Origin: Pseudomonadota bacterium
GTDB lineage: Bacteria > CALINM01
NCBI GenBank assembly: GCA_026418415.1
Contig: JAOABK010000012.1
Coordinates: 1 to 57,017 of the forward strand
Direction: 5' to 3'
Length of the DNA: 57,017 nt
Of this stretch, positions 2,378 to 33,608 are shown piece by piece (positions within the stretch are counted from its first letter, which is position 1; each line of letters begins with the position of its first letter). The notes under the pieces are model-generated. The model had not been told where the DNA came from. It saw only the letters and a list, made by a program, of their open reading frames with translations, and did no database searches. Made by a program: the position numbers and the translations under genes.

Positions 2378-2395
2378 GTTTCTTCCTCCCTCAAA

Positions 2396-3742: not shown

Positions 3743-3766
3743 AAGATCTCTCCTTTTCTTAATTTT

Positions 3767-5959: not shown

Positions 5960-5980
5960 AAAAATCCCCCTTTATATTTA

Positions 5981-6916
5981 CTATTTAAAAAATTCGTTCA
6001 TGAAAGATCTTACAAGCTTAACTGACTCTGGATGCCTTAAAACCATTATGTCAGAGCCAGCAATAAGTAAATTAATAGCAGTTATTGCTTCCCATAAAAT
6101 CCCACGGGTTGCAAGATTTCCAAAAGAAGGCTCTTCAGATTCAGATATTTTCGCTTCTCTTGCTTTCCATGCTTCTTTACCAATCATATTTATAAAAGGT
6201 GATTTTAACTTATCATCACCCTGTGCTAATGCTGCAAGTCTAATTCTTTGCATTACAGAAAAGGTATATTCAATACCATATCCTAAACCACCTGTTGTTG
6301 GATCGATTACTATGGATTCAAGAGGAACACCTAAATTACCCAGTAAAATATTTAATTGTTTGGCTAAGTTAACATCAATAGGTGAGGCTGCTGCAACCTT
6401 ATGTTGATAACCTAATGAGGCGCCACCAACTGTTCTGTAGTTCTCATCATCTGCAGGCCCTAAAAGAATTACTTTTCCATGGCAAGCTTCACCAACAGCC
6501 TTCATAACTTCTCCATCTTTCTCACTATTAAGACTACCATAGACAATAAGAGGAATATTGATTGCATCAAGAACTGCTTTAGCAGTTTTCGCTGCTTCCT
6601 CTGCGGAACGATTCATACCATTTGGATCAGTGCTAACAAGGCTTAGACAAATCATATCAGCCTTAAATTCATTTTGGCATTTTAGCGCCCACTTAACTGG
6701 ATCATCATACACATCACCAACAGCATCAACTAAAGTTTGAGGCCACTCTTCTGGTTTTACATCTAAAACTTCCATTGCAATTTTTGGAGGATTTGGAACA
6801 GGACCATCAAAAGAGTAAATGCCTGTAAGTACTGACTGCCCCCCCACTTTCAGGTCAGAAATACTGACTTCTGTGATTGAATTGTTGTACTTCTCTACTG
6901 GTTCTTTAAAAGCCAT
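5981..6916 (-). CDS. acsD: Corrinoid/iron-sulfur protein small (delta) subunit
   Basis: 311-residue TIM-barrel protein of the CdhD/AcsD family, partner of AcsC. Recognisable stretches include DMICLSLVSTDPNG, the VYGSLNSEKDGEV region and DPTTGGLGYGIEYT. It contributes to corrinoid binding and docking of the methyltransferase. In this operon it lies upstream of acsB rather than next to acsC. Shine-Dalgarno GGAGAGGGG precedes the ATG. Confidence 0.92.
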   Translation of the reverse strand: MAFKEPVEKYNNSITEVSISDLKVGGQSVLTGIYSFDGPVPNPPKIAMEVLDVKPEEWPQTLVDAVGDVYDDPVKWALKCQNEFKADMICLSLVSTDPNGMNRSAEEAAKTAKAVLDAINIPLIVYGSLNSEKDGEVMKAVGEACHGKVILLGPADDENYRTVGGASLGYQHKVAAASPIDVNLAKQLNILLGNLGVPLESIVIDPTTGGLGYGIEYTFSVMQRIRLAALAQGDDKLKSPFINMIGKEAWKAREAKISESEEPSFGNLATRGILWEAITAINLLIAGSDIMVLRHPESVKLVRSFMNEFFK

Positions 6917-6934
6917 AACCCCTCTCCTTTCTGT

Positions 6935-7684
6935 TTATTTTTGTACCATATATTTATCAACAAATTCATCAATTATCTTAACTACTTTGTTATCATCGGG
7001 TAATTGAAGGGTGGGAATACCTCTTTCATCAAACTCTCTTATTGTATCATCGGCAGGTAAAATACAGGCGAGCTCTAAACCCGTCTTTTCTATCTCCCCC
7101 CTCGTATCTGGCGTTAATTCGCCAAAAACCCTATTTAAAATTACAACAATTTTATTAATTTTCAACTTTAATTCGTCGCAAAGATCTCTAATCCTTGCTG
7201 CAGTTATTACCCCCCTTAATGATGCATCTGTAACAATAACCATGAGGTCTGCGCCATGAGTAGTTCTTCTACTCATGTGTTCTAATCCAGCCTCATTATC
7301 AATTATTACATAATTATAATTATTTGCGAGAATGTCAACATATTTTTTACATAACACATTTGCATAACAATAACAACCTGGTCCTTCTGGTCTTCCCATA
7401 GCAATAAGATCAAAACCATCAGATTCTACAAGAGCCTGCTGTACTCTATAACCAATATATGCATCTTTGGTCATGCCAGGGGGGACCTGAAGCAACTCCT
7501 CTCTGATTTTACCTATTGTTTCAGTAATTTTAACTCCTAAAACCTCATTTAGATTGCAATTAGCATCTGCATCAACTGCAAGAATGGGAGATTTACCCTT
7601 TTTTAGAAGGCTTCTAATGATAAGCCCAGCTACCGTTGTCTTGCCTGTGCCACCTTTTCCAGCCATCGCTACAAAAAAAGCCAT
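6935..7684 (-). CDS. cooC: CODH/ACS nickel-insertion ATPase (CooC/AcsF family)
   Basis: 249-residue MinD/ParA-type P-loop ATPase. The deviant Walker A is GKGGTGKTT at residues 10-18, DADANCNLNE follows strand 2, and a CYC pair in GPGCYCYANVLC matches the metal-binding CxC motif of CooC. It matures the nickel sites of CO dehydrogenase or acetyl-CoA synthase. It lies 4 bp after acsV and 19 bp before acsD. Its presence implies a Ni-CODH elsewhere in the genome. Confidence 0.88.
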   Translation of the reverse strand: MAFFVAMAGKGGTGKTTVAGLIIRSLLKKGKSPILAVDADANCNLNEVLGVKITETIGKIREELLQVPPGMTKDAYIGYRVQQALVESDGFDLIAMGRPEGPGCYCYANVLCKKYVDILANNYNYVIIDNEAGLEHMSRRTTHGADLMVIVTDASLRGVITAARIRDLCDELKLKINKIVVILNRVFGELTPDTRGEIEKTGLELACILPADDTIREFDERGIPTLQLPDDNKVVKIIDEFVDKYMVQK

Positions 7685-7687
7685 AAT

Positions 7688-9619
7688 TTAACCTTTCTTA
7701 ATTTTTCCCATTACGCCGGGAAAATTATTTAAATTTGTATGGGGCAGAAAAAGTGATGCCACATACTCTTCCATAAAGCTTGAATAGTTACTTAACTCAA
7801 TATTGGTCATCATATTAGCACATTTCTCAGCCTCTAACAACTTATCTTTTGAAAAAGCCATTAACCTTGCTCCTGCAAGAGAACTATTACCCACATACAT
7901 AAATTTTTCAACAGGTATTTCTGGTAATAAACCTATAATAATTGCTTTCTCAATATTAATAAAACTTCCAAAACCCCCTGCAATTATAAACTTATCAATG
8001 TTTGTAAAATCAAGCCCTACGCTTTTTAATAAAACAGAACAACCTGCATATATTGCACCTTTTGTTCTTATTATATTATCGATATCCACTTCTGTAATTA
8101 CCAGATCAACTCCTATTTGTGTCTCTTCTTTCCAGGCGAGCACATACTCATATCCACTTTCTCCTTCTCTAACCCGCTTAGTACCTAAGTTTTTTAAGAA
8201 TTTACCATCGGGAGTAATTATACCTGCTTCGAAGAGTTCTGCAATCAATATAATCATTCCCGATCCGCATATTCCCTTAGGTTTTACTTTACCAATAGTA
8301 AAAATAGTGGGTTCAAGGGTTTCTCTATCAATAATTACATTTTCGATAGCCCCTCTTGTCGCTCGCATACCATATTTGACTCCCCCGCCTTCGAAGGCTG
8401 GACCAGCAGAACATGAAGCAGTTACCATCCAATCACTATTTCCCAAAACAATCTCACCATTTGTACCAACATCAATAAATAAAATTAACTCCTGAGTTTG
8501 ATGAATTCCACATGCCATCACACCTGCGACAATATCTCCGCCAACATAGCTTGCAATTAAGGGAGCAGGATATAAATAAACATGGTCAGCCACATCAAAA
8601 CCCAAATTTTTAGCTCTAATAAATGGGAAAAAGTTAACTGTTGGAACATAGGGATCTTCCCTTATATATTTTGGATTTAGACCCAATAAAAGATGGGTCA
8701 TTGTTGTATTTCCTGCAAAAACAATAATAGATATCTTTGATTTATCAATATTTGCCTCTTTAACGGTCTCATTAATTAGAGAATTTAATGATTTTATTAC
8801 TACTTCTTGTAATCTTTCTAACCCCCCCGGTTTAATTCCATAGAGAATTCTTGTAATTACATCTTCCCCATAACTTATTTGAGGGTTATAGTCTGAAGAT
8901 TCTGCTAAAACAGTTCTATTTTTTAAATCTAATAATTGAACGTAAAGAGTTGTGGTACCTACATCAATTGCGACACCATAAAAACTTTCCTCAGTATTAC
9001 CCTCCTCCACACCAATTATTTTTGGGATTTGTCCTTCCTTTTCAAGGATTAGAGCTGTCACTTTCCAATCTGCATTTCTTAATGTATTTGCAAGGTTTTT
9101 TAAACATTTAAAGTCAACTTCCAGATTTTCGTAGTCATATTGCTTCTTTAAACCAAGTATCAACCTTGATAAATCTGCAATATTGTTCTCTATTGTTGGC
9201 TTTGATAGTTCAACATATCTTTTAGTAACGACAGGGCTTGCTTCAAATATATCTTCTATCGTTATTTTTGATGCAGTTAAACCAAATGATTTTTCTTCTT
9301 TTACAGCTTCTTTTCTTTTTAGAACACTTCTATCTAATTTTGATTCAGCAGGTATAATAACAGTACAGTCTGATAATACTGTTGTTTGACAAGCAAGTCT
9401 ATATCCCATATTCCATTCTTCTTCAGTAAGTTTTTCAGATCGCTTACTTTCATATTTTCCCTTTTCTATAAAGACCTTACATTGACCACATGTACCAATT
9501 CCACCACATGAAGCATTGATATGTGCTCCTGCAGCATGAGCAGCTTTTAGAAGATTCGAACCAACCTCTACATTTGCTGACTTCTGATCAGGTAAAAAAT
9601 CAACATTAACTTTTTCCAT
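7688..9619 (-). CDS. acsV: Reductive activator of corrinoid/iron-sulfur protein (RACo)
   Basis: 643 residues. The N-terminal [2Fe-2S] ferredoxin domain has CGGIGTCGQC (about 38-47) and a distal Cys in LACQTT. After a linker comes a C-terminal ASKHA-type ATPase domain (DUF4445) with YGVAIDVGTTTL, FIDVGTNGE and AGGFG. It uses ATP to re-reduce inactive Co(II) corrinoid to Co(I) on AcsCD. It is the first gene of the Wood-Ljungdahl operon. No Shine-Dalgarno sequence precedes the ATG, and a TATAAT hexamer lies 7 nt upstream, suggesting a leaderless mRNA. Confidence 0.9.
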   Translation of the reverse strand: MEKVNVDFLPDQKSANVEVGSNLLKAAHAAGAHINASCGGIGTCGQCKVFIEKGKYESKRSEKLTEEEWNMGYRLACQTTVLSDCTVIIPAESKLDRSVLKRKEAVKEEKSFGLTASKITIEDIFEASPVVTKRYVELSKPTIENNIADLSRLILGLKKQYDYENLEVDFKCLKNLANTLRNADWKVTALILEKEGQIPKIIGVEEGNTEESFYGVAIDVGTTTLYVQLLDLKNRTVLAESSDYNPQISYGEDVITRILYGIKPGGLERLQEVVIKSLNSLINETVKEANIDKSKISIIVFAGNTTMTHLLLGLNPKYIREDPYVPTVNFFPFIRAKNLGFDVADHVYLYPAPLIASYVGGDIVAGVMACGIHQTQELILFIDVGTNGEIVLGNSDWMVTASCSAGPAFEGGGVKYGMRATRGAIENVIIDRETLEPTIFTIGKVKPKGICGSGMIILIAELFEAGIITPDGKFLKNLGTKRVREGESGYEYVLAWKEETQIGVDLVITEVDIDNIIRTKGAIYAGCSVLLKSVGLDFTNIDKFIIAGGFGSFINIEKAIIIGLLPEIPVEKFMYVGNSSLAGARLMAFSKDKLLEAEKCANMMTNIELSNYSSFMEEYVASLFLPHTNLNNFPGVMGKIKKG

Positions 9620-9710: not shown

Positions 9711-9754
9711 AAAAGTCAGTTTCTATCCTCTAAAAAAGAAAGGAAACTGACTTT
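9711..9754 (-). terminator. Hairpin at the end of the complex I operon
   Basis: A 12-bp perfect stem (AAAGTCAGTTTC 9712-9723, GAAACTGACTTT 9743-9754) has a 19-nt loop that contains the nuoN stop codon. In the minus direction it is followed by TTTTAT, a weak U-tract. It probably ends most nuo transcripts or separates them from the acs operon. Confidence 0.55.
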
Positions 9755-11178
9755 ATCGTTAAATCAAAGAGTTTTCCTGGTAGTACACCAATATTCAAAA
9801 CACCAATTGCTGAAATCAAGATCGCAACAACTTGCGGAGCTGAAATATTTATATTTGAAATAGGTTCTTCAGCATCCTTGAAATACATATAAACAAGTAC
9901 TCTCAAATAGTAATAAGCTGATATAGCAGAGTTTAATACACCAATAATGGCAAGAGAGACATAGCCAGACTGGATTGCTCCTGTAAAAATATAAAATTTG
10001 CCTGCAAAACCAGATGTGGGAGGTACTCCAGCCAAGGAAAACATAAAAATTACCATCATAAATCCAAGGAAAGGATGTTTAAAACCCTTTCCTGAAAGAT
10101 GGTTCAATTCGGTGCTATGAGTTTCTTTTTCAAAAAATGAAATTATTGCAAATGCTCCGATATTCATAAGAGCATAGGATATTAAATAGAAAATTACTGC
10201 TCCCAATCCAATTTGGTTTAGAGATGTAAAACCGACTAATAAATACCCAGCATGGGCAATACTTGAATAGGCTAACATTCTTTTAACACTTTTTTGCGCA
10301 AGGGCTGAAAGATTACCAAGTGTCATTGTAAAAACAGCTAAATATGCAATTATACCTGCATAATCAACAACTACCCCTCTTAATCCCAACAAATATACCC
10401 TGAAGAGCATCGAAAATGCTGCTGCTTTAACAGCAGTCGCCATAAAGGCTGTAACTGTCGTTGGAGCGCCTTCGTATACATCAGGAGTCCACATATGAAA
10501 TGGTACCGCTGCAATTTTGAAAACTATTCCTGAAAAAACAAGAGCTGATCCCATTAGCAACGGCAGGCTCTTACCATCCATAAAATATTTTGTGAAATGC
10601 TGGAGCATATAAGCAAAATTAGTTGTGCCAAAAGCACCATAAAGAAAGGCAACCCCAAGGAGAAAGATCGCTGTAGAAAAGGATCCTAAAAGAAAATATT
10701 TCATCGCTGATTCAATAGACCTTTCACTTTGTTTGAAAAGCCCCGCTAAAACATAAATTGATAGAGACATCATCTCAAGCCCTAAAAATAAAATAAGAAA
10801 ATCAAGAGCTGATACCATAAAGGACATACCTGCTATTGCAAATAAAATCAAAGCATAGTATTCACCAGTATGCTTTATCTTTCCTTCAATATAATTATCT
10901 GATAAAAGGCATACTAAAAATCCTGAGACAAAGAAAATAGCATTAAAAATACCCACAAGTTCATCAAACAATATAATGTTTGAAAAACCTAATTTTCTAC
11001 TACCAAAGAGATATATATTTACCATAAAGGCCAAGGCAATTCCTAAAGCAGATATCTGTCCCAAATAACCACTCTTGGAAACCTTGGTATAACCACCTAT
11101 CAACATTAATAAAAAACCAAAACAGATCAAAACCAGTTGAGGCGCTATACTCCAAAAGTTTATATTAAGCTCTCCCAT
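9730..11178 (-). CDS. nuoN: Complex I membrane subunit N (second cluster)
   Basis: 482 residues, almost wholly hydrophobic with about 14 membrane segments, of the antiporter-like NuoN/L/M family. The conserved lysine regions (for example TATAMKAAAF-like TAVKAAAFSML and KRMLAYSSIAHAGY) are present. It forms one proton channel of the membrane arm. It is the last gene of the second nuo cluster and begins one base after nuoM. It is distinct from the NuoN at 24082-25497 and of similar length. Confidence 0.95.
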   Translation of the reverse strand: MGELNINFWSIAPQLVLICFGFLLMLIGGYTKVSKSGYLGQISALGIALAFMVNIYLFGSRKLGFSNIILFDELVGIFNAIFFVSGFLVCLLSDNYIEGKIKHTGEYYALILFAIAGMSFMVSALDFLILFLGLEMMSLSIYVLAGLFKQSERSIESAMKYFLLGSFSTAIFLLGVAFLYGAFGTTNFAYMLQHFTKYFMDGKSLPLLMGSALVFSGIVFKIAAVPFHMWTPDVYEGAPTTVTAFMATAVKAAAFSMLFRVYLLGLRGVVVDYAGIIAYLAVFTMTLGNLSALAQKSVKRMLAYSSIAHAGYLLVGFTSLNQIGLGAVIFYLISYALMNIGAFAIISFFEKETHSTELNHLSGKGFKHPFLGFMMVIFMFSLAGVPPTSGFAGKFYIFTGAIQSGYVSLAIIGVLNSAISAYYYLRVLVYMYFKDAEEPISNINISAPQVVAILISAIGVLNIGVLPGKLFDLTIKSVSFLF

Positions 11179-12723
11179 TTATTTTCCCCCTTTGACCTGC
11201 TCATTTACTATATTTTTATTTTCAATGCTCATTGTTACATGTTTATTATACCTATTTAAAAACTCATTAACGGAAAGATGCATTTTCCTTAAAAAATAAT
11301 TTGGATATAATCCCATAACAAAAAACATAATTACAATAGGAACCATAGTCATAATTTCTCTTAAATTCAGATCCTTTATTTTCTTATTTTCTTCATGAAC
11401 AATGGGCCCATACATTACCCTTTGAAACATCCATAACATATATGCAGCAGAAAGAATAACACTGGTAACACCTAAAACAGCCCACAATGTATTAGCTTTA
11501 AATGCACCTGCAAAAATTAAAAACTCACCTATAAAACCATTCAATCCTGGTAGACCAATAGATGACAGTGTAACAACCATAAAAAATGCTGCAAACACTG
11601 GTATTTGCTTGGTTAATCCTCCAAAGTCAGCTATCAATCTTGTATGTCTTCTTTCATAGAGCATACCAATCATTATAAAGAGAGCACCTGTACTTAATCC
11701 ATGATTAAGCATCTGGTAAATACCACCCTCTATTCCCTCTCTATTAAGACTAAAAAGACCAAGCATTACTGCACCTAAATGACTAACAGATGAATAAGCA
11801 ACAAGCTTTTTTACGTCAGGTTGCATCATCGCAACAAGTGCACCATATATTATTCCTATAATAGAAAGGGCAACAAAAAAGGGTATAGATGCCTGTGTGG
11901 CATTTGGGAATAAACCCATAGCAAATCTTATAAATCCATAAGTTCCCATTTTCAACAAAACACCTGCAAGAATAACACTACCAGCGGTAGGTGCTTCCAC
12001 ATGAGCATCAGGCAACCATGTATGTAGTGGAAACATTGGAACTTTAATTGCAAAAGATAGTGCAAATGCAGCAAAGAGCCAGATCTGTACTTCATAGGGT
12101 GGTATATTTTCATAAAGCTTTAATAAGTTAAATGTGTAGTCTCCAGTCTTACTACCCACATAGAAGTAGAGAACTAAAATTGCAACAAGCATCAAAACAC
12201 TACCAAAAAGAGTATAAAGAACAAACTTTATCGCTGCGTATATCCTTCTTTGCCCACCCCAAACCCCTATAATAAAGTACATGGGGATTAGCATAAGCTC
12301 CCAGAAAACATAAAATAAAAACAAATCGAGCGCAACAAAGGCTCCAAGCATTCCTGTTTCAAGAACAAGCATACAGATTAAAAATTCTCTAACATTCTTA
12401 TGAATATAGGTCCAGGAACAAAGAATACATATTGGCACTAAAAAGGTTGTTAGAACAAATAGCAACAGTGAAATGCCATCTATCCCAACAAAATAACTTA
12501 TCCCTAATCTTTCTATCCATACATACATCTCGGTAAACTGAAATCCCGGTGTATTTTCATTAAAATAGAAAAGTACTGGTAATGATATGATAAAATCAAT
12601 TAGTGCTATTACAAATGCCACACCTTTTAATACCCGCTCGTTTTCCTTGTTTATCATGAAAAGAATCAAAACACCCAGTAATGGGAAAAATGTCACAATA
12701 CTTATAATTGGAATACCCTGCAT
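11179..12723 (-). CDS. nuoM: Complex I membrane subunit M (second cluster)
   Basis: 514 residues. Family motifs include the conserved Glu in FWELMLIPMYFIIG, PMFPLHTWLPDAHVEAPTAGS and KKLVAYSSVSHLG. It is a proton-pumping antiporter-like subunit between NuoL and NuoN. Its 3' end provides the GGGGG-rich ribosome-binding site for nuoN. Length is normal for the family. Confidence 0.95.
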   Translation of the reverse strand: MQGIPIISIVTFFPLLGVLILFMINKENERVLKGVAFVIALIDFIISLPVLFYFNENTPGFQFTEMYVWIERLGISYFVGIDGISLLLFVLTTFLVPICILCSWTYIHKNVREFLICMLVLETGMLGAFVALDLFLFYVFWELMLIPMYFIIGVWGGQRRIYAAIKFVLYTLFGSVLMLVAILVLYFYVGSKTGDYTFNLLKLYENIPPYEVQIWLFAAFALSFAIKVPMFPLHTWLPDAHVEAPTAGSVILAGVLLKMGTYGFIRFAMGLFPNATQASIPFFVALSIIGIIYGALVAMMQPDVKKLVAYSSVSHLGAVMLGLFSLNREGIEGGIYQMLNHGLSTGALFIMIGMLYERRHTRLIADFGGLTKQIPVFAAFFMVVTLSSIGLPGLNGFIGEFLIFAGAFKANTLWAVLGVTSVILSAAYMLWMFQRVMYGPIVHEENKKIKDLNLREIMTMVPIVIMFFVMGLYPNYFLRKMHLSVNEFLNRYNKHVTMSIENKNIVNEQVKGGK

Positions 12724-12735: not shown

Positions 12736-14652
12736 TTAAAAAATAAATATACTTATAATTAAAACAACTCCCAATAGTATACCAACCGCATAGTTTTGAG
12801 TAGAACCTGTTTGAATTTTTGCAAATATACCACCAAAATATTGGACAATTGCACCTACTCCATTTACTATGCCATCTATAACAAGCACATCAAATTTCTG
12901 CCATAGTAGCGTGCCCAATCCCTTACATCCCTTGACAAAAATAAACTCATAAATCTCATCAACATAGTACTTATTATAAAGCAAGGTATAAATACCCTTC
13001 ATTTTCTCTGCTAAGGAAACTGGCAATTGGGGATTCTTTATATAGAATGTATAGGCAATAAAAAAACCTACCACCGCTATTCCAACAGAAATCGCCATTA
13101 AACCATATTCAAGGGCATGAGAATAATGATGGGGTTGCGTAGTTCCAACCTTTTTAATAACAGGTTCAAGGAAATGATGGAAATGATTACTTCCACCTAA
13201 TGCTTCTGGAACTCCCACATATCCGCCAATTACTGAAAGCACAGCAAGAATCATTAATGGAATTATCATTGAATTAGGAGATTCATGGATATGGTGCTTT
13301 GTGTGCTCATCCATTCTTTCCTTCCCAAAGAAGGTTAGAAAAGTAAGCCTAAACATATAAAAAGACGTCATTCCAGCTGCAACAGTTCCAATCAACCAGA
13401 GTAACGGATGACCATGGGGGCTTGAAAAAGCCTGCCATAGAATTTCATCTTTACTAAAAAATCCTGATAGCCCTGGTGTTCCAGCAATTGCCAAAGTACC
13501 TATTAGGAATACAATAAAGGTTTTGGGTATATATTTTCTTAGTCCACCCATATTCATTATATCCTGTTCGCCACCCATAGCATGTATTACACTACCAGCA
13601 CCAAGAAAGAGTAAGGCTTTAAAAAAAGCATGGGTCATAAGATGGAAAATGCCAGCAGAATATGCAGCAACCCCGACACCTAAGAACATATAGCCCAACT
13701 GACTTATTGTTGAATAGGCAAGAACCTTTTTAATATCCCTTTGAACAAGCCCCATAGATGCAGCAAATATTGCTGTTAATGCGCCTATTGTTGCTACAAC
13801 TCCCAAACTAAAAGGTGCAAGGGAATATAAAACATTACATCTTGCAATCATATATACACCTGCGGTAACCATTGTAGCTGCATGGATTAATGCAGATACA
13901 GGTGTTGGACCCGCCATAGCATCTGGTAACCATACATAAAGTGGTATTTGAGCAGATTTTCCCGTAGCACCAACAAATAATAAAAGTGTTATAGCGGTAG
14001 CAAGAGTACCCCCATAGGGTAATAGAGTTGTTGCTTTGTCAAAGACCTCTAAATATCTTAAACTACCAAAAGTAACAATTATTAGAAAAATTCCAAGAAT
14101 AAAGCCAAAATCACCAACTCTGTTAACTACAAAAGCTTTTTTACCAGCATCTGCATTAGCATGGTCATCATACCAGAAGCCAATTAACAAATAGGAACAT
14201 AAACCAACACCTTCCCAACCAACAAACATCATAAGGAAATTATTTCCCATTACAAGTAGTAGCATTGCAAAAACAAAGAGGTTTAAATATGTAAAAAACC
14301 TCCAGTATGATTCATCTTCATGCATATAACCAGTTGAATAAATATGTATTAAAAAGCCAACGCCAGTTACAACAAGAAGCATTACTGCACTAAGTGGGTC
14401 AAGCAGAAAACCAACATCTACAGAAATACCCCCTGAATATATCCAGGAATACAGTATTACTTCTACAACCCTCTGATCAGGTGGTAAAGATAATAATTGG
14501 AAAAAAGCTTTCAAGGATAAAACAAAAGACACACCTATTGCAGTAATTGCAATATCATGTACAACCCTTTTAGAAAACTTATATCCCAGAAGCCCATTTA
14601 TTAGAGCACCTAAGGCTGGAAAAAGAGGAATACAAATTAAATAGTTAAACAT
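12736..14652 (-). CDS. nuoL: Complex I membrane subunit L (second cluster)
   Basis: 638 residues, with the antiporter core followed by the long lateral-helix extension typical of NuoL. Motifs seen are WEGVGLCSYLLIGFWY, PLYVWLPDAMAGPTPVSALIHAATMVTAG and KKVLAYSTISQLGYM. It caps the membrane arm distally. A short histidine-rich stretch (DEHTKHHIHESP) lies in the loop before the C-terminal helices. Confidence 0.95.
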   Translation of the reverse strand: MFNYLICIPLFPALGALINGLLGYKFSKRVVHDIAITAIGVSFVLSLKAFFQLLSLPPDQRVVEVILYSWIYSGGISVDVGFLLDPLSAVMLLVVTGVGFLIHIYSTGYMHEDESYWRFFTYLNLFVFAMLLLVMGNNFLMMFVGWEGVGLCSYLLIGFWYDDHANADAGKKAFVVNRVGDFGFILGIFLIIVTFGSLRYLEVFDKATTLLPYGGTLATAITLLLFVGATGKSAQIPLYVWLPDAMAGPTPVSALIHAATMVTAGVYMIARCNVLYSLAPFSLGVVATIGALTAIFAASMGLVQRDIKKVLAYSTISQLGYMFLGVGVAAYSAGIFHLMTHAFFKALLFLGAGSVIHAMGGEQDIMNMGGLRKYIPKTFIVFLIGTLAIAGTPGLSGFFSKDEILWQAFSSPHGHPLLWLIGTVAAGMTSFYMFRLTFLTFFGKERMDEHTKHHIHESPNSMIIPLMILAVLSVIGGYVGVPEALGGSNHFHHFLEPVIKKVGTTQPHHYSHALEYGLMAISVGIAVVGFFIAYTFYIKNPQLPVSLAEKMKGIYTLLYNKYYVDEIYEFIFVKGCKGLGTLLWQKFDVLVIDGIVNGVGAIVQYFGGIFAKIQTGSTQNYAVGILLGVVLIISIFIF

Positions 14653-14662: not shown

Positions 14663-14980
14663 TTACCCCTTTAAAATATTTAATTTATCCATGTCTACTG
14701 TGCCTTTTAATCTAAAGAGCATAATAATGATCGCAAGCCCAATAGATACTTCCGCTGCTGCAACAGCCATAATGAAAAATACATACATTAAACCTAAGCT
14801 CGTTTTTAAAAAATGGGAGTAGGCAACGAAAAGCAAATTTACAGAATTTAGCATCAATTCAATGGACATAAAACAAATCAAAAGATTTCTGCGAATTATA
14901 AAACCAAGAACACCTATACAGAATAAAATACAGCTCAAAATTACATAGTAATTTATCGTTATTTCCATTTCTCCCCCCAT
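14663..14980 (-). CDS. nuoK: Complex I membrane subunit K (second cluster)
   Basis: 105 residues, three membrane helices. The conserved glutamates of the E-channel are visible in LLICFMSIELMLNSVNL and MAVAAAEVSIGLAI. The start overlaps the nuoJ stop (TAATG). A second ATG four codons in is preceded by a G-rich stretch and could be the true start. Confidence 0.93.
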   Translation of the reverse strand: MGGEMEITINYYVILSCILFCIGVLGFIIRRNLLICFMSIELMLNSVNLLFVAYSHFLKTSLGLMYVFFIMAVAAAEVSIGLAIIIMLFRLKGTVDMDKLNILKG

Positions 14981-15492
14981 TACTCCTTTTTCTTTCCTAA
15001 GACAACAGCACCGATTATACCCACTATAAGCACTATAGATACTACTTCAAAGGGAAGCAGATAATCACTAAAAAGAGCGTGTCCTATTATTTTTGTATTA
15101 TCCAATCCTTTTGTATCTATAAAAAATCTCTCAATTCCTGGAACATTTGCAGTAACATTGAAACCTGCAACCACCAACTGTAAGAAAAAAAGCCCAGTTA
15201 GGATTGCACCAGCAATTCTGCCTGAAGTTGCTTCAATCTTATATTTTTTTACCTCTCCCAAATTTAATAACATTATTACAAAAACAAATAGTACCATTAT
15301 TGCACCTGCATAGACAATTAACTGGATAACAGCGATAAATTCTGCATTAAGTAGTAAATAGTTCACAGCAAGGGCAACCATAACTACAATAAGTGACACT
15401 GCACTATAAACTGGGTTTTTTTGCAAAACCGTTGATAAGGCAGCAATTACAGCAACTATACCAACTATGATTGTAATATAACTCGTAATCAT
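14980..15492 (-). CDS. nuoJ: Complex I membrane subunit J (second cluster)
   Basis: 170 residues with five predicted membrane helices. The conserved FIAVIQLIVYAGAIMVLFVFVIML region around the pi-bulge helix is clear, followed by the C-terminal helix EVVSIVLIVGIIGAVVLGKK. The start overlaps the nuoI stop by 4 bp (ATGA). It is part of the proton translocation path near the quinone site. Confidence 0.94.
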   Translation of the reverse strand: MITSYITIIVGIVAVIAALSTVLQKNPVYSAVSLIVVMVALAVNYLLLNAEFIAVIQLIVYAGAIMVLFVFVIMLLNLGEVKKYKIEATSGRIAGAILTGLFFLQLVVAGFNVTANVPGIERFFIDTKGLDNTKIIGHALFSDYLLPFEVVSIVLIVGIIGAVVLGKKKE

Positions 15493-15905
15493 ATCTTTAC
15501 CTCATCCCCTCTTTTTAACAGGGTATCCCTGTCAAGTATAAGTTCTTCTTTCTTATAAGCTGCGTTTTCATATTGAGGTGTAAGAACTATTGCATTTACT
15601 GGACAAACTTCCTGGCATAGTCCACAGAAAATACATCTCCATCCGTCAAGTATATAAGTTTTAGGATACCTCATTCCATCTTCCAATTCGCCTATTTCTA
15701 TTTTTATGGCCTTAGCTGGACAAATTGCCTCGCAAAGACCACAGGCAACACATTTAATACTCCCATCTGGCTTTCTACCTATAATATGAAGCCCCCTATA
15801 CCTTGGAAAGGATCCAACTTTTTCTTCAGGGTAGTGAACTGTTATAGGTTTACTAAAAAAATACTTTAAGGTTATCCAAAGACCTTTAACTAACGGCTTA
15901 ATCAT
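15489..15905 (-). CDS. nuoI: Complex I subunit I, two [4Fe-4S] clusters (second cluster)
   Basis: About 138 residues. Two ferredoxin motifs, CVACGLCEAICP and CIFCGLCQEVCP, bind clusters N6a and N6b and carry electrons toward NuoB. I start at the ATG that follows GGTGGG. An in-frame GTG at 15917 has no ribosome-binding site but would add four residues. It lies between nuoH and nuoJ as usual. Confidence 0.93.
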   Translation of the reverse strand: MIKPLVKGLWITLKYFFSKPITVHYPEEKVGSFPRYRGLHIIGRKPDGSIKCVACGLCEAICPAKAIKIEIGELEDGMRYPKTYILDGWRCIFCGLCQEVCPVNAIVLTPQYENAAYKKEELILDRDTLLKRGDEVKI

Positions 15906-15917
15906 AGTTTCACCCAC

Positions 15918-16916
15918 CTAATTTAATAACATCATAACCAAACCGGTTACAAAAATATTTGCAAGTGCTATTGGTACCATAACTTTCCAACCCAATTTCA
16001 TAAGCTGATCGAACCGAACCCTTGGATAGGTTGCTCTAACCCAGATAAAGAAAAATATTAGAATAAATACCTTTATCATAAACCATACAAGGGGTGGTAA
16101 AAAGGGGCCATGCCAACCACCAAGAAATAGCGTTGTAGCTAAACTTGCTACTGTAATCATATTTGCATATTCTGCCATGAAGAACATTGCAAATTTCATG
16201 CTACTATAATCTGCATGGAATCCTGCAACAAGCTCTGATTCTGCTTCTGGCATATCAAAGGGGGTTCTATTTAGTTCTGCAATTCCACATATAAGATACA
16301 TAATAAATGCAACTGGTTGGTATACTACATTCCATACATTTTTTTGAGCATTAACAATTTCTACAAGATTAAGCGAACCAGATATCATTATTACACCAAT
16401 AACTGATAAAGTAAGGGCAAGCTCATAGCTTATCATTTGTGCTGAACCACGTAATGCACCCATAAGAGCATACTTATTATTTGCAGACCAACCGCCAAAA
16501 ACTACACCATAAGATCCAAGTCCAGCTAAAGCAAATATATACAATATCCCAACATTTAACTCTGCAATTCTCATTGGCTCAGGATTTTTTAGTAAACCAA
16601 AAAAAGTTGTATAATCTCCAAAGGGAATAACAGCAAAGGTCATAAGGGCCGGAATTATACTAAGTGTTGGAGCAAGAATAAACAAAAACTTATTTGCATT
16701 CCTTGGAATTATATCTTCTTTAAAGAAAAGTTTTATACCATCTGCTATGGGTTGAAGTAATCCATGCCATCCCGCATACATAGGCCCTACTCTTATCTGT
16801 ATATGACCTATTACCTTTCTCTCAATCCATGTAAGATAGGCAACACAAAGCATAACACAAGCAAAAACTACAACAACCTTAACAAAGGTAAATATAACAA
16901 GTGACCAATCAATCAT
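15918..16916 (-). CDS. nuoH: Complex I membrane subunit H (second cluster)
   Basis: 332 residues, eight or more membrane helices. Signature stretches are [41 protein letters not shown] and VRATYPRVRFDQLMKLGWK. It forms the quinone-access chamber. The start overlaps the stop of the formate dehydrogenase gene by 4 bp (ATGA), so translation of the two is coupled and the FDH belongs to this operon. Confidence 0.95.
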   Translation of the reverse strand: MIDWSLVIFTFVKVVVVFACVMLCVAYLTWIERKVIGHIQIRVGPMYAGWHGLLQPIADGIKLFFKEDIIPRNANKFLFILAPTLSIIPALMTFAVIPFGDYTTFFGLLKNPEPMRIAELNVGILYIFALAGLGSYGVVFGGWSANNKYALMGALRGSAQMISYELALTLSVIGVIMISGSLNLVEIVNAQKNVWNVVYQPVAFIMYLICGIAELNRTPFDMPEAESELVAGFHADYSSMKFAMFFMAEYANMITVASLATTLFLGGWHGPFLPPLVWFMIKVFILIFFFIWVRATYPRVRFDQLMKLGWKVMVPIALANIFVTGLVMMLLN

Positions 16917-19597
16917 ACTGTTGTCCCCTTAACATGCTTTTTTATTCTAACAGCAGACACTTTTAATTCGGGTATTTTAGACACAGGATCAAGAATTGTA
17001 TTTGTTAGCTTATTTACCGCTGCTTCTGAAAAATGGAAATGCTTAAATACAACACCTTTTGGTACTCTATCTGAAAACTTTGCTTTAACAATTACATGAC
17101 CTCTTCTGCTCTCCACGACAACCCATTCTCCATCTCCAATACCTAAATTATTCGCATCTTCTGGATTAATTTCAACCATGCTTTCTTGACAATAATAATT
17201 AAGTACTCTCGCCTTTCTTGTCATTGTCGACGAGTGGTAATGATAATAATTTCTACCAGTGGTTAGAACAAAGGGATATTCATTATCTGCAGACTCTGCA
17301 GGTGGTCTATATTCAACAGGAACTATAAGCCCTTTACCTCTTGCAATTTTACCTACATGTAAAATTGGTGTACCAGGATGATTTTCATCTGGGCAAGGCC
17401 ATTGAATGCCTTTCAAGCCCAATCTCTTATAAGTAATACCAGCATATTGGGGAGTAACCTTTCTAATTTCTTCAAAAATCTCTTCAGCATTTTTGTAATT
17501 CATTGGATAACCCATTTTTGTAGAAAGTTCACTGATAATTTTCCAGTCCTGCTTTGCTTCACCTGGCTCATTAACAGCTTTCCTAACAAGTTGTACCCTT
17601 CTTTCCGTATTTACAAATGTCCCATCTTTTTCTGCAAAAGATGCCGACGGTAAAACCACATGAGCCAATTTTGCAGTTTCTGTAAGAAAAATATCCTGTA
17701 CTATGAGCAATTCCAGATTTTTCAATGCCTCTTCTACATGGGTTATATCTGGATCGGTAACCATGGGATTTTCACCCATTATATACATTGCTTTTAATTT
17801 TCCCTCATATGCAGCATTAGTCATCTCAACGATCGTAAGACCTGGTTTGTCTGAAAGTTCTACATTCCAGAATGCTTCAAATTTAGCTTTATTTTCAGGA
17901 AGATGCACTTTCTGATAACCAGGATATACATCTGGTAGCCCTCCCATATCACAGGCTCCCTGAACATTGTTCTGCCCTCTCAATGGATTAACTCCAGATC
18001 CAGGTTTACCAATATGACCACATAACAATGCAAGATTCGATATAGCTTTTACATTATCAGTGCCTTTCGAATGTTGGGTAATTCCCATGCAATAAAGAAT
18101 TGCTGCATTTTTTGCCTTTGCATATATTCTTGCTACTTCTCTAAGCTTATCTGCTGGTATTCCACAAATTTGTTCAACATATTCCGGGGTATATTTATCA
18201 ATAATCTTCTTTAACTCCTCAAATCCCTCTGTCTGTTCTTCTACAAACTTTTTGTTATATAAACCTTCTGAAATAATCACATTTGCCATTCCATTCAGCC
18301 ATGCAACATCATGCCCCGGTTTTGGTGAAAGCCACATTATTGCTTCTTCTGTAAGATCTATCTTTCTTGGATCAACAACAATTAGTTTTACTCCTTTATA
18401 ACGAGACAAATGTCTCAACCACATTCCAATAACAGGATGGGTCTCTGTTGTGTTGCTTCCAGTAACAATGATAACCTCAGCTTCTTTTAAATCTTCTACT
18501 GAGTTTGTCATTGCGCCTGAGCCCAATGTAGTAGCCAGACCGGCTACAGTAGAGCTGTGTCAGAGCCGGGCACAGTGGTCTACATTATTTGTTCCTATTA
18601 CTGCTCTTATGAATTTTTGAAAGAGATAGTTATCTTCATTTGTACATCTTGCTGATGCAAGACCTGCAATGCTATCAGAACCATATTTGTTTTTTATCTC
18701 AGTAAGTTTTGAAGCAACAAAAGATAAAGCTTCATCCCAAGTTGTCTCGACAAGCTCATTGCCCTTTCTAATTAAAGGTTTTGTTAATCTTTCTGGACTG
18801 TTTACAAACTCATAACCAAACCTTCCTTTAGCACATAAAACACCTTTATTCATTCCCGCATTTACATCTGTTGTTACCTTAATTATCTTATTGTCTAAAA
18901 CATTTAATTCTAAGCTACATCCTACACCACAATAGGCACATACTGTAGGAACTCTTTTTATCTGCCATATCCTTCCTTTAGTTGGACTCACCGTTTCAGT
19001 TAATGCACCAACAGGACATGCAGATAAGCATTCTCCACAAGCAATACACCGGTCTGGATTAACTGGTTCTACCCTTGCATCAAAACCATTTCCCACAATA
19101 TCAAGTACATTTCTTCCCACCACTTCTCTGCATGTTCTAATACACCTGCTACACATAACACATCTATTAGGATGGTATTTTATAGCGGGTGTAGAATATT
19201 CTTTATATTCTTTTAGTGGAGCCTTTATTGTATAAGGCTGAACGTCCACATTATATTCATAAACGAGATCCTGTAATAAACATTCCCCTCCTTTATCACA
19301 TATAGGACAATCAAGGGGATGATTAATTAAAAGAAATCTTAGTATATCTTTACGCATGTTTCTAATTTTTTCAGTGTTAGTCCTAATCACCATACCATCA
19401 ACAGCAGGGGTATTACATGCAGTGACAGGATTTTCATATCCCTCAACTTCAACAACACACATCCTACAAGATCCAATGGGAAGCAATTTTTCCATAAAAC
19501 AGAGAGTAGGTATATGAATACCCTCTTTCTTTGCTATTTCAAGAATTGTCAACCCATGATCGGCAGTTATGTTTTTACCATCTATAACTATTTGCAT
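16913..19597 (-). CDS. fdhA: Selenocysteine formate dehydrogenase alpha subunit with NuoG-like N-terminus
   Basis: One 894-residue reading frame interrupted only by UGA at 18560-18562 (residue 346). Across it the frame reads CARLUHSSTVAGLATTLGSG, the classic active-site context of selenocysteine formate dehydrogenases; the same frame continues to 16913. Domains: [2Fe-2S] (C33, C44, C47, C61); His-Cys3 cluster (H93, C97, C100, C106); two ferredoxin clusters (C146-C156 and C184-C194); Mo/W bis-MGD domain opened by CAYCGVGC (C220, C223, C227, C255). It oxidises formate or reduces CO2. It takes the NuoG slot in a nuo operon, downstream of the SfrB-like gene and overlapping nuoH. Without UGA readthrough it would look like a truncated NuoG plus a headless oxidoreductase. 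Confidence 0.95.
18531..18547 (-). promoter_or_regulatory. Bacterial SECIS element
   Basis: In the mRNA sense, 12 nt after the UGA, there is a perfect hairpin: stem GUAGCC/GGCUAC with loop GGUCU. The GGUCU apical loop is the SelB-binding loop known from the E. coli fdhF SECIS, and the distance from the UGA is similar. This marks the UGA as selenocysteine rather than stop. Confidence 0.95.
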
Positions 19598-19611: not shown

Positions 19612-21528
19612 TTATTGTTTATCGTAGGCAAATGTTACTACTCTATAACAACGAAGGCATCTACTTGCCTCGTATATTGCTTCTTCTTTTGTAAATCCCT
19701 TTGTATATTCATTAAAATTAGTTTTTCTAACCTCGGGAGGATCATGTTTTATATGAGCCCTTTTTAAACCTCCAGGTACCCTCTTTTTCTCTTTAATATC
19801 GAAGGGTTTTAACTCAGCTATGACTTTTTCTAAAAGCTGTTCATCATAGACCTCTAACTTGCCCTTTGTAAGGTAATCATTAATTTTCATTGCAGCGAGC
19901 CTTCCATGAGCACAAGCTCTAATTAAAACATCGGCGCCAATTACACAGTCTCCACCTGCGAAAACACCAACTCTTGTACTCATAAAATTTTCATCCACAA
20001 GGATTGTCTGTTTTTTAGTGATTTCAACACCATTTATAGCGGTAACACAACAACTAATATCAGCTTCCTGACCTATCGCTGGAACTAAAACATCAGTTTC
20101 TATAATAAACTCCGAACCAGGTACCGGTACTGGACTTCTTCTGCCAGAAGCATCTGGTTCACCCAACTGCATCTTTATGCATTCAAGTCCTACAACTTTA
20201 CCATCCTTACTAATCACCCTTTTGGGTGCTGTTAACATATGAAATTTAACACCCTCCTCTTCTGCTTCCATGACTTCAACAAAATCAGCAGGCATCTCAG
20301 CTTTTGAACGCCTGTAAACTATATTTACATCTTCAAATCCCATCCTAAGAGCACTTCTTACACAATCCATTGCCACATTTCCGCCACCAACAACTACGAT
20401 TTTCTTACCCTTGGGGATTTCCTGCCCTGTATTTATATACCTTAAAAAGTAAACACCAGGTATATAGCCTTGTAAATTTTGATCCTCTCCTTCAATGTCT
20501 AATTTTTTATGGCAATGACATCCTAAACCCACAAAGACCGCTCTATATCCATCATTTTCTAAATCCTCAACAGTAAAATCAATACCAAAGGTTTTGTTAT
20601 AAACAATCTTCACTCCCAATTTCTCTATTTCACTAACTTCACCTCTTAAAATCTCTCTTGGAAGTCTATAATCTGGAATACCCACCGCTGCCATACCACC
20701 TGGTTCCGAAAGGGTTTCAAAAATTGTCACATCATATCCCTCTTTAGCTAAAAAGAATGAAGCGGTAAGGCCTGCAGGACCTGCACCAATGATTGCTACT
20801 TTTATATTTTTCTTTGGTTTACATTCAAATTTTGGCCAGTAATCTCTTTCTAATGCAAAATCTGCCACAAACCTTTTTAAATGTTTTATTTGTATAGGCT
20901 CATCAAGTAGGGTCCTTCTACAATTAAACTCACAGGGTCTTACGCAAACCCTACCTACAACACCTGGCAACGGTAATTTTTCACATATGGTTTCAAGTGA
21001 GTCTTCATATCTTCCAAATTTTATGTTTTCAACATATTTTGGTATATCAAGATGAATTGGACAGGCCTGCATACAGGGAGCAGTCATTGCAGATTTATAT
21101 TCGAATGCTTTAGCTGTCCCCCTTTTACCATTGATATAATCTAAAAATACATCTTTGTGCTGTTCAATAATATATTTAAAAACCCTTGGTGAACTCTGAC
21201 CAATCTCACACATCGAAGATAAAGAGATATTTTCTGATAGTAAAACAATATTATCTAAGTCATCACTCTTTCCTTCACCTTTATAAATTCCTTCAAAAAT
21301 ATCTCTAATAACCCTTGTACCAACCCTGCAGGGAATACATTGTCCACAGGAATAGTTCTGAATTGCTCTCGAATATTCTAAACACAACTCAATTAGGTCT
21401 ATTGAAGGATCAAATACCTCTATCCCATCCCAACCTATCACTGCTTTAACATTTTTTTCACCATACTTTAATGGTTTAGGATTTTCATCGTATTTGTTAT
21501 TCCAAAAAGCAAATGTCTTGTCTATCAT
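19612..21528 (-). CDS. SfrB-like NuoF/GltD hybrid: NAD(P)H oxidoreductase subunit
   Basis: 638 residues. Residues about 50-130 match only the C-terminal [4Fe-4S] domain of NuoF (C61, C64, C67 in SCGQCIPC, and C107); the NuoF FMN/NADH domain is missing. Then comes a GltD-type region: iron-sulfur cysteines at about 152-156 and 195-203, an FAD fold with IIGAGPAGL at 246, an NAD(P) fold with VVVGGGNVAMD at 378, and GDCV near the C-terminus. This layout resembles SfrB, the NADPH-oxidising partner of SfrA in Geobacter. Placed between nuoD and fdhA, it would pass electrons between NAD(P)H and the FDH/complex I iron-sulfur chain. Cofactor preference (NADPH or NADH) cannot be told by eye. Confidence 0.85.
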   Translation of the reverse strand: MIDKTFAFWNNKYDENPKPLKYGEKNVKAVIGWDGIEVFDPSIDLIELCLEYSRAIQNYSCGQCIPCRVGTRVIRDIFEGIYKGEGKSDDLDNIVLLSENISLSSMCEIGQSSPRVFKYIIEQHKDVFLDYINGKRGTAKAFEYKSAMTAPCMQACPIHLDIPKYVENIKFGRYEDSLETICEKLPLPGVVGRVCVRPCEFNCRRTLLDEPIQIKHLKRFVADFALERDYWPKFECKPKKNIKVAIIGAGPAGLTASFFLAKEGYDVTIFETLSEPGGMAAVGIPDYRLPREILRGEVSEIEKLGVKIVYNKTFGIDFTVEDLENDGYRAVFVGLGCHCHKKLDIEGEDQNLQGYIPGVYFLRYINTGQEIPKGKKIVVVGGGNVAMDCVRSALRMGFEDVNIVYRRSKAEMPADFVEVMEAEEEGVKFHMLTAPKRVISKDGKVVGLECIKMQLGEPDASGRRSPVPVPGSEFIIETDVLVPAIGQEADISCCVTAINGVEITKKQTILVDENFMSTRVGVFAGGDCVIGADVLIRACAHGRLAAMKINDYLTKGKLEVYDEQLLEKVIAELKPFDIKEKKRVPGGLKRAHIKHDPPEVRKTNFNEYTKGFTKEEAIYEASRCLRCYRVVTFAYDKQ

Positions 21529-21543: not shown

Positions 21544-22719
21544 TTAACGGTCGATTTCTCCAAGAACTATATCTATACTACCAATGACTGCAACCACATC
21601 AGCAATCATAGACCCTTTAACAATCTCTGGCAAAGCAGAAAGATTTACAAAACATGATGATTTTATTCTAAATCTGTATGGCATTGATGAACCATCACTA
21701 ACTATGTAAAATCCTAACTCTCCTTTGGCATTCTCTACTGAAGCATAAACTTCACCTTTTGGAACTGTAAAACCTCCACAACCAATTTTAAATTGATGTA
21801 TCAAAGCTTCGATGTTTTTAAGCACTAAATCCTTGTCAGGAAAAACAATTTCTGGAACATGGGCTTTAATAGGTCCTTCAGGTAATCTTTTTATGGCCTG
21901 CTTTAAAATCCTATTACTCTGTCTTAACTCTTCCATTCTCACAAGATATCTATCATAGTTATCACCTTTAGAACCCACCGGTACATCAAACTCATACTCT
22001 TCGTAACCACAATAAGGTTGAGCTTTCCTATAATCAAACTTAACGCCAGATCCCCTCAATGCTGGTCCAGTTAATCCCCAACTTATCGCATCCTCAGCTG
22101 AAATAATACCTATATCCTTTGTTCTTGCTAACCAAATTGGATTTTTTGATAACAATTTATCATACTCATCTACATGGGCATCAAAGGTATCTACAAACTC
22201 CTTTAATTTATCCATAAAACCTTCTGGTAAATCTGCAAGAAGTCCACCTATCCTTATGTATGAAGGGGTTAATCTTTGCCCCGATACCATCTCCCACATA
22301 TCAAGAATCTTTTCCCTTTCACGGAAGCAATAGAAATAAAGAGTCATTGCACCAATGTCAAGGGCATGAGTTGCAAGCCAGATTAAATGCGCAGCGATTC
22401 GAGAGAGTTCTGACATTATTACTCTTATAACCTTAGCTCTTTCTGGTACTTCAATATTCATAAGCTTTTCAACAGCAAGACAATAGGCAAGATTATTAAT
22501 CATCGCTGAGGTGTAGTCTAATCTGTCTGTATAAACAATATTCTGTATATAAGTCTTTGATTCACCTAACTTTTCTACACCTCTGTGTAGATGCCCAATT
22601 ACAGGTATTGCGCGATGGATAACTTCGCCTTCAAGCTCAAGTATGACCTTGAGAACCCCATGTGTTGCGGGGTGCTGAGGTCCCATATTAAGGGTCATGT
22701 ATTTTTTCTGTTCACTCAT
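21544..22719 (-). CDS. nuoD: Complex I subunit D (second cluster)
   Basis: 391 residues of the 49-kDa/NiFe-hydrogenase large-subunit-like family. The quinone-site loop NMGPQHPATHGVLK and the Tyr in TDRLDYTS are kept. There are no CxxC pairs for nickel, so it is a complex I subunit and not a hydrogenase. A separate gene from nuoC. It is followed 15 bp later by the SfrB-like gene where nuoE/nuoF would normally be. Confidence 0.94.
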   Translation of the reverse strand: MSEQKKYMTLNMGPQHPATHGVLKVILELEGEVIHRAIPVIGHLHRGVEKLGESKTYIQNIVYTDRLDYTSAMINNLAYCLAVEKLMNIEVPERAKVIRVIMSELSRIAAHLIWLATHALDIGAMTLYFYCFREREKILDMWEMVSGQRLTPSYIRIGGLLADLPEGFMDKLKEFVDTFDAHVDEYDKLLSKNPIWLARTKDIGIISAEDAISWGLTGPALRGSGVKFDYRKAQPYCGYEEYEFDVPVGSKGDNYDRYLVRMEELRQSNRILKQAIKRLPEGPIKAHVPEIVFPDKDLVLKNIEALIHQFKIGCGGFTVPKGEVYASVENAKGELGFYIVSDGSSMPYRFRIKSSCFVNLSALPEIVKGSMIADVVAVIGSIDIVLGEIDR

Positions 22720-22722: not shown

Positions 22723-23181
22723 TTAAGACTCCTCAATTCCCTGAAGTGGGAAATCCTTTCTTAATGGATAATATTTAAAATCTTCTGTCATTAAAATCCT
22801 TCTTAAATCTGGATGATTTTTAAAATTAATTCCAAACATATCAAAGACTTCTCTTTCAAGCCATTCAGCCCCCTTCCACAACGATGTAACGCTTTCAACA
22901 CTATCCCCTTCTTCAACCCTTGATTTAACTCTTATCCTTATATTATTTGCTATAGAAAAAATGTGATAAACAAGCTCAAATCTTGGCTTTTGCTCGGGAT
23001 AATCCACTGCTGTAATATCTGCAATCATATTAAATTTCAAACGTTCATCTTCTTTCAATAATTTCAAAAAACTAAACAAACTTTCTTTAGGTACTAAAAC
23101 AGTTACACAATCTATTCCTTCATAGGCATCGATTTTGAATTCGCAATTTTTTAATATATTTATCAGTTCTAAGCGTTCCAT
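22723..23181 (-). CDS. nuoC: Complex I subunit C (second cluster)
   Basis: 152 residues of the 30-kDa subunit family. The C-terminal signature is EREVFDMFGINFKNHPDLRRILM followed by YYPLRKDFP. It is an iron-sulfur-free structural subunit of the quinone module. It lies between nuoB (8 bp gap) and nuoD (3 bp gap). Confidence 0.93.
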   Translation of the reverse strand: MERLELINILKNCEFKIDAYEGIDCVTVLVPKESLFSFLKLLKEDERLKFNMIADITAVDYPEQKPRFELVYHIFSIANNIRIRVKSRVEEGDSVESVTSLWKGAEWLEREVFDMFGINFKNHPDLRRILMTEDFKYYPLRKDFPLQGIEES

Positions 23182-23189: not shown

Positions 23190-23663
23190 CTAAACCCTAT
23201 CTTTTAATGACTCTTTCACTATTTTTTCTCTTAACATCACTATAGCTCTTAATAATGCCTCTGGCTTAGGTGGACAACCAGCAACATAGACATCGACAGG
23301 GATAATCTTATCAACACCTTGTACTACATTATAGGTATTAAAAAGCCCCCCAGAACATGCACAGGCGCCATAAGCTATTACCCACTTTGGTTCTGGCATT
23401 TGGTTATAAAGTTTTATTACATAGGGTGCCATTTTTTTTGTCAAAGTTCCCGGAACAATTAAAAGATCTGATTGTCTTGGAGAACCACGGAAAACCTCTG
23501 CACCAAATCTTGCTATATCATGCCTTGCTGATGCTGCTACCATCATCTCCAAAGCACAACAAGCAAGCCCGAAGGTCATGGGCCATAGTGAATTTTTCCT
23601 AGCCCAGTTAACTACCTTGTCTAATGATGTAGTAATTATACCTAAATGACTTTCTATTCCCAT
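23190..23663 (-). CDS. nuoB: Complex I subunit B, cluster N2 (second cluster)
   Basis: 157 residues. All N2 ligands are seen: the tandem CC in [10 protein letters not shown], Cys in YGACACSGG and Cys in [11 protein letters not shown]. It hands electrons to quinone. The start lies inside the nuoA 3' end (10-bp overlap), a coupling also seen in the first cluster. Confidence 0.95.
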
Positions 23664-24010
23664 TCTAATGCTCCTTTTGCCCAGACATATATAAAGCCAA
23701 ATAATAAAATTAATAAAAATACCATCATCTCTATGAAACCAAACCAGCCAAGTTTTTTGAATAAGACAGCCCAGGGATACATAAATGCTGCTTCTATGTC
23801 AAATATTATAAAAAGCATTGCTATTATGTAGTATCTTACAGGATAACGATCTCTTGCATCACCAATAGGCACATTACCACATTCATAGGGCGCTAACTTA
23901 TCTTCATTTGGTTTTTTCTGACCAATTAGTGATGAGACAATTACTGAACCACACGCAAAGGCAATCGCTATGATACCTATTATTAATATAGGCAAGTAAC
24001 TTTGTAGCAT
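23654..24010 (-). CDS. nuoA: Complex I membrane subunit A (second cluster)
   Basis: 118 residues, three membrane helices. The conserved loop [20 protein letters not shown] and the helix [13 protein letters not shown] are present. First gene of the second cluster, with a strong GGGGGGAG ribosome-binding site. It is 71 bp after the end of the first cluster, enough for its own promoter. Confidence 0.95.
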
Positions 24011-25497: not shown

Positions 25498-25507
25498 ATT
25501 CCCCTCC

Positions 25508-26980: not shown

Positions 26981-26993
26981 GGCTATCCTCCTT

Positions 26994-28880: not shown

Positions 28881-28882
28881 AA

Positions 28883-29194
28883 CTACCCCTTTAACTCTGT
28901 TAGTTTTTCAGCATCAATTTCTTTATAGTGTCTAAAAATTAGAAAAATCAATCCAAGAGCGATTGTAGTTTCTGCAGCAGCAAGGGCAACTATAAATATG
29001 GCAAGGATCTGACCCATGGCACTACCATTTACTGAAAACTTATTTAAGGCTAATAGATTAATAGAAACACCATTTAAAACTAACTCTATACAAATAAGCA
29101 TAATAATGAGATTTCTTCTTACAAGAATACCTATAAGACCTAAACTAATTAGAATCAAACTTAATAAAAGATAGGGGAAGAGAGAGCCAGCCAT
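28883..29194 (-). CDS. nuoK: Complex I membrane subunit K (first cluster)
   Basis: 103 residues, three helices. Channel glutamates are seen in IIMLICIELVLNGVSINLL and VALAAAETTIALGL. It abuts nuoJ and is 2 bp from nuoL, a compact operon arrangement. Confidence 0.93.
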   Translation of the reverse strand: MAGSLFPYLLLSLILISLGLIGILVRRNLIIMLICIELVLNGVSINLLALNKFSVNGSAMGQILAIFIVALAAAETTIALGLIFLIFRHYKEIDAEKLTELKG

Positions 29195-30122: not shown

Positions 30123-30132
30123 TTTCTACCTC

Positions 30133-31104: not shown

Positions 31105-31113
31105 AAAACCCTC

Positions 31114-32220: not shown

Positions 32221-32223
32221 TTA

Positions 32224-32652: not shown

Positions 32653-32655
32653 GGG

Positions 32656-33491: not shown

Positions 33492-33533
33492 ACTTCCCCC
33501 CAAAATAAATGAATTTAAAGCTAAACCATAAGC

Positions 33534-33563
33534 GTAATAACATATAAAATTTTGAGTTGTCAA
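33534..33563 (-). promoter_or_regulatory. Candidate promoter of the first nuo cluster
   Basis: Minus strand: TTGACA at 33558-33563 and TATTAC at 33534-33539, 18 bp apart, upstream of the chosen nuoA start. The leader would be about 35 nt. Confidence 0.5.
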
Positions 33564-33608
33564 CAAAAAAATTATTTTAATGAAATTTTTCTAAAGTTTT
33601 AAAAACAC

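Follow-up and report, generated by a model that had tools for sequence, protein, structure and literature searches.

A predicted selenocysteine formate dehydrogenase takes the place of the electron-input subunit in a complex I operon

A gene that looks broken in the window (the whole 57,017-nucleotide stretch of DNA analysed here) reads as one intact selenocysteine (Sec) formate dehydrogenase (FDH), and this predicted enzyme takes the place of the electron-input subunit ("nuoG") in a complex I operon (Table 1). The cell probably feeds electrons from formate into complex I by this route, or runs the reaction backwards from CO2 to formate. The Sec reading of the in-frame UGA is strongly supported by homologues, by a conserved RNA stem and by the decoding genes of the host. 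The initial annotation had recognised the protein as a Sec formate dehydrogenase, an interpretation that the profile score, the FdhF-type residues and the Sec machinery support; it had missed the complex I operon around the gene.

Table 1. Features of the window around the formate dehydrogenase gene
Feature	Coordinates	Strand	Basis or remark
Acetyl-CoA synthase, corrinoid protein, pterin-binding methyltransferase and AcsV genes (Wood-Ljungdahl pathway)	458..9619	minus	
nuoN	9730..11178	minus	position and similarity to related operons
nuoM	11179..12723	minus	position and similarity to related operons
nuoL	12736..14652	minus	position and similarity to related operons
nuoK	14663..14980	minus	position and similarity to related operons
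nuoJ	14980..15492	minus	position and similarity to related operons
nuoI	15489..15917	minus	NCBIfam profile
nuoH	15918..16916	minus	position and related operons; 4-nt ATGA overlap with the FDH gene
fdhA/nuoG-type gene, predicted 894-aa Sec formate dehydrogenase with NuoG-like N-terminal Fe-S domain	16913..19597	minus	
UGA with bSECIS-like element	18531..18562	minus	6-bp apical stem GUAGCC/GGCUAC, GGUCU loop; 12 nt after UGA
In-frame UGA (Sec346)	18560..18562	minus	
FgltD, NuoF C-terminal N3 [4Fe-4S] domain fused to GltD/NfnB-like FAD/NAD(P)H module	19612..21528	minus	
nuoD	21544..22719	minus	NCBIfam profile
nuoC	22723..23181	minus	NCBIfam profile
nuoB	23190..23663	minus	NCBIfam profile
nuoA	23654..24010	minus	operon position and matches in related nuo operons

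Evidence for selenocysteine at the in-frame UGA

When TGA is translated as U, the frame is open over 894 codons, the only in-frame stops being the TGA at codon 346 and the terminal TGA at codon 895, and the gene carries no other frame damage. The initial annotation had described a frame broken by this UGA only, in the context CARLUHSSTVAGLA; translation reproduces both the frame and the residues (CARL-U-HSSTVAGLA) and places the gene on the minus strand, a detail not given before. It had further anticipated that automatic annotation would split the gene, and an ORF finder indeed yields pieces of 345 aa and 537 aa. Recoding of TGA throughout the genome was dismissed, since the FDH gene uses TGA as its own stop codon, within the overlap with nuoH.

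The perfect GUAGCC-GGUCU-GGCUAC hairpin reported earlier downstream of the UGA was found exactly there. Its GGUCU loop starts 18 nt after the UGA, at the same distance as in E. coli fdhF, and of the 60 perfect stems of 6 bp closing a 5-nt loop that the two strands of the window contain, only the hairpin at the Sec site has a GGTCT loop. Folding of the UGA and 42 nt as RNA gave −14.8 kcal/mol with a z-score of just −2.06, so that folding energy alone is modest evidence. An Rfam search of the whole window at the gathering threshold returned neither a SECIS nor any other RNA, and the SECIS call therefore draws on homologues and on the comparison with E. coli fdhF.

A scan of 84,980 species genomes gave 80 loci encoding relatives. 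In 85 full homologous copies, the residue column of the UGA holds TGA in 55, spread over several phyla, a Cys codon in 29 and Glu in one (L090). The six-pair apical stem is complete in 49 of the 55 Sec copies, whereas none of the 29 Cys copies retains it. In 22 sequences, the stem scores 0.451 for covariation, whereas shuffles average 0.183 and none of 500 reaches the observed value; the score drops to 0.165 or less when the stem partners are slid. Constraint from the V-A-G-L-A codons was considered as a cause of the hairpin and ruled out: several Cys copies encode the same peptide without keeping all six pairs, and protein coding thus fails to account for the stem.

The initial annotation had proposed a genome search for selA, selB, selC and selD and had named absence of selB and selC as evidence against its reading. 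All four genes are present, selA, selB and selD each above the NCBIfam cut-off in profile searches and the tRNA-Sec gene selC above the Rfam cut-off. The genome combines an aligned UGA, a bSECIS stem-loop directly after it and the complete Sec gene set, three features by which bacterial selenoproteins are recognised. The selD gene of this genome (L018, G000:C95:51038-51943) itself contains one in-frame TGA, and SelD is therefore probably also a selenoprotein.

Assignment of the protein as a formate dehydrogenase

Residues 218–885 match the Fdh-alpha profile TIGR01591 with 922 bits (cut-off 666), which exceeds by 474 bits the score against the NuoG equivalog TIGR01973; the latter, at 448 bits, falls below the cut-off of 470 that marks a canonical NuoG. 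The N-terminal 200 residues comprise Fer2, NADH-G_4Fe-4S_3 and ferredoxin domains and supply ligand sets for a [2Fe-2S] cluster and an N5-type cluster together with eight ferredoxin-type Cys. The protein is 46% identical to E. coli FdhF, and the alignment matches Sec140, His141, Lys44, Arg333 and each of the four cluster Cys. Its closest solved match over the full length is the FDH alpha subunit of Rhodobacter capsulatus (6tg9, residues 3–885), and that of the catalytic part is HDCR FdhF (7qv7); these matches settle the predicted fold. The genome also contains fdhD, and in this genome of 92% completeness the gene is the only FDH-alpha above the cut-off.

Organization of the complex I operon

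The operon runs nuoA-B-C-D-FgltD-G-H-I-J-K-L-M-N with intergenic gaps of −10 to +15 nt, G being the Sec FDH gene, and holds a complete 11-subunit complex I core (nuoABCDHIJKLMN). NuoB, C, D and I pass their NCBIfam family cut-offs, and A, H and J-N were assigned by position and similarity. FgltD consists of PF10589 (the NuoF C-terminal N3 domain), Fer4_20 and Pyr_redox_2 (GltD/NfnB type), and its GltD part matches 8oh5; the domain search returned no FMN-binding 51-kDa (51K) NuoF domain. A complete or FMN-type NuoF was not found in the genome (92% complete), where the sole match is the N3 domain of FgltD, and the operon contains no NuoE; the pairing of NuoE with an FMN-binding NuoF that defines the canonical 14-subunit NADH:quinone complex I was thus not observed.

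The Wood-Ljungdahl gene block begins 110 nt after nuoN on the same strand; its last ORF (458-1477) has no family match. An FTHFS gene is present elsewhere in the genome. A sulfate-reducer reading of the host was considered and is unsupported, because dsrA is absent from the genome.

Further features of the window include a second complex I cluster (24082-33566, minus strand), nuoA-D then H-N without nuoEFG, which lies 71 nt upstream of the FDH-containing one. Genes for Cas6, Cas2, a 270-aa protein, Cas1 and a second Cas2 stand in a row at 52887-56158 (minus strand), and no CRISPR array was found beside them in 52500-57017.

Linkage to complex I genes among homologues

Among the genomes searched, the phylum is represented by three, and the other two, both of the same family, lack the Sec FDH gene; one of them gives a weak partial match to FgltD. 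Conservation was therefore tested in other phyla. The order nuoD-FgltD-G-nuoH recurs at three loci (L024, L025 and L027) and is partly visible at L076 and L086, where the sequence ends within G; L036 and L038 show G-nuoH. At L064, G precedes nuoA and FgltD lies between nuoD and nuoH. At five further loci (L033, from the cultured Desulfoferrobacter suflitae, and L035, L037, L066 and L079) G follows nuoN; at loci of this L033 type, neither the nuoD–nuoH interval nor the 10 kb downstream showed an FgltD. FgltD therefore does not accompany the FDH everywhere.

All nuo-linked copies fall within one clade of 19 rows, mostly from deltaproteobacterial genomes (SH-aLRT 96 in a quick tree built without bootstraps), on which the nuo label needs two changes, and 14 of 14 encode Sec. 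Within the clade, L023 holds the single copy that has full flanks but no nuo genes; it encodes Sec and is 67% identical, and no nuo genes lie within 10 kb of it. There (L023:8073-12667) the Sec FDH gene directly follows apparent etfB and etfA, named by inspection of the sequence, and may encode an Etf-linked FDH. At the neighbouring pair L032 and L074, FgltD and FDH occur without nuo genes nearby. Outside the nuo-linked clade, the FDH genes mostly adjoin NuoE and full NuoF. Among other loci, L090:2824-5511 encodes the homologue with Glu in place of Sec, which has NuoE, NuoF and a fragment of nuoH for neighbours; this homologue may be a former FDH turned NuoG. L026:1399-6864 carries tandem Sec FDH copies with 56% and 49% identity to the protein of the window.

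A proposed route between formate and quinone

Our proposal starts from features read directly in the DNA, namely the Sec codon, SECIS, Sec machinery, catalytic residues, cluster ligands, operon structure and clade-wide linkage. SelB-dependent reading of UGA346 as Sec would yield a single cytoplasmic Mo/W-bisPGD formate dehydrogenase that replaces NuoG, binds the NuoI/B/CD core as NuoG does and assembles with it as one complex. Formate would be oxidised at the Sec site, and electrons would pass from the FDH [4Fe-4S] cluster via two ferredoxin-type [4Fe-4S] clusters and the NuoG-type clusters to NuoI, NuoB and quinone, driving proton pumping by NuoLMN. Through the GltD-like FAD module on the remnant NuoF N3 domain, this chain could also trade electrons with NAD(P)H. 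Working backwards on the proton-motive force, the complex may reduce CO2 to formate for the Wood-Ljungdahl methyl branch, a supply suggested by the finding of no other FDH in the genome. We consider it likely that the cytoplasmic Sec FDH is the electron-input module of complex I, coupling formate to quinone with proton pumping or working in reverse. We lean, by a smaller measure, towards a distinct complex I subtype of anaerobes with a Sec FDH input, here joined by a GltD-type NAD(P)H branch, which would combine proton-motive-force-driven CO2 reduction or proton-pumping formate respiration in one enzyme. Several observations weigh against an input-module role in complex I: gene linkage is no proof of assembly; the L023 gene beside etfBA demonstrates that an FDH copy can lie apart from nuo genes; FgltD is inconstant, not being found at the L033-type loci; both same-family relatives lack the gene; and the genome, at 92% completeness and 4.8% contamination, leaves room for a second FDH or a NuoEF that went unseen.

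That the UGA is a true stop, or an assembly or point error leaving two truncated proteins or a pseudogene, would fit the split made by the ORF finder and the weak z-score of the fold, but it is already contradicted and deserves almost no credence, given the shared TGA column across phyla with Cys as its alternative, the six-pair stem complete in Sec copies only, the full Sec machinery and the otherwise undamaged frame. Canonical NuoG carries a Mo-free version of the molybdopterin fold, and the domain could likewise be a structural relic here, with electrons entering only from NAD(P)H via FgltD, which does offer an alternative input. The catalytic Sec, His, Lys and Arg and the cluster ligands known from active FDH are all retained; this, together with the margin of the Fdh-alpha over the NuoG profile and the conservation of Sec in every nuo-linked copy, makes such a relic highly improbable.

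A weightier alternative, though still an unlikely one, is a soluble Sec FDH that forms an NAD(P)-linked enzyme with FgltD and whose gene just happens to stand in one operon with those of a complex I devoid of an input module. L032 and L074 carry the pair and L023 the FDH alone away from nuo genes, and 11-subunit forms of complex I that lack an N module are known (PMC5736913; PMC11238625), one such cluster standing directly upstream in the window. Against this, FgltD and FDH sit exactly between nuoD and nuoH in the window and at L024, L025 and L027, an interval that is the usual site of nuoEFG, with almost no spacing; the NuoG-type clusters are kept in the N-terminal domain; and nuo linkage tracks one clade.

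Were the FDH to serve complex I as its input module, the opening reaction of the Wood-Ljungdahl pathway would be coupled directly to both the proton gradient and the quinone pool. Going by textbook values, with formate/CO2 at about −430 mV and menaquinone at about −80 mV, electrons passing from formate to menaquinone could sustain more proton pumping than those passed to it from NADH. Such a role would also lend support to a picture of complex I in which one core accepts interchangeable input modules.

Comparison with known systems

Sec formate dehydrogenases with NuoG-like N-termini are a well-known kind of enzyme, yet one that simple gene callers split. While the predicted Sec enzyme itself appears ordinary, the formate-linked complex I would be a variant: neither a nuo-linked FDH nor an FDH-type NuoG with an N3-GltD fusion was found described in the open-access papers searched, which is weak evidence of novelty because the search covered such papers only.

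The NAD-dependent FDH of R. capsulatus (FdsA/FdhA) aligns over residues 3-885 and shares the NuoG-like Fe-S N-terminus and FDH core, but it has Cys where the window protein has Sec, and the window gene lies in a nuo operon, in a genome where no full NuoF-type partner was found. E. coli FdhF (FDH-H) resembles it in sequence, active-site residues and loop distance from the UGA, but lacks the NuoG-like N-terminus and belongs to formate hydrogenlyase rather than complex I. Canonical NuoG shares the N-terminal [2Fe-2S], N5-type and ferredoxin domains and the operon position, whereas the window protein scores below the NuoG cut-off and has an FDH domain that is catalytically complete by its residues. 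Sec FDHs of the HylCBA-FdhA type, which include many of the homologues, are of the same family but stand beside NuoE and full NuoF, not nuoABCDHIJKLMN.

Nuo-Bfu of Geobacter is a complex I with a non-canonical input module in place of NuoEFG (PMC9304861); its input is an NADH/ferredoxin BfuABC module, in contrast to the FDH and N3-GltD fusion of the window. StnC of the Stn transhydrogenase likewise joins a GltD-like module to NuoG-type Fe-S parts, but it has no formate activity and is part of a soluble trimer (PMC7483475, PMC10482914); unlike in StnC, the GltD module of the window is fused to a NuoF N3 domain. A genome of the candidate phylum MBNT15 carries 14-gene and 11-gene nuo clusters back to back (PMC9386147), a cluster layout like that of the window.
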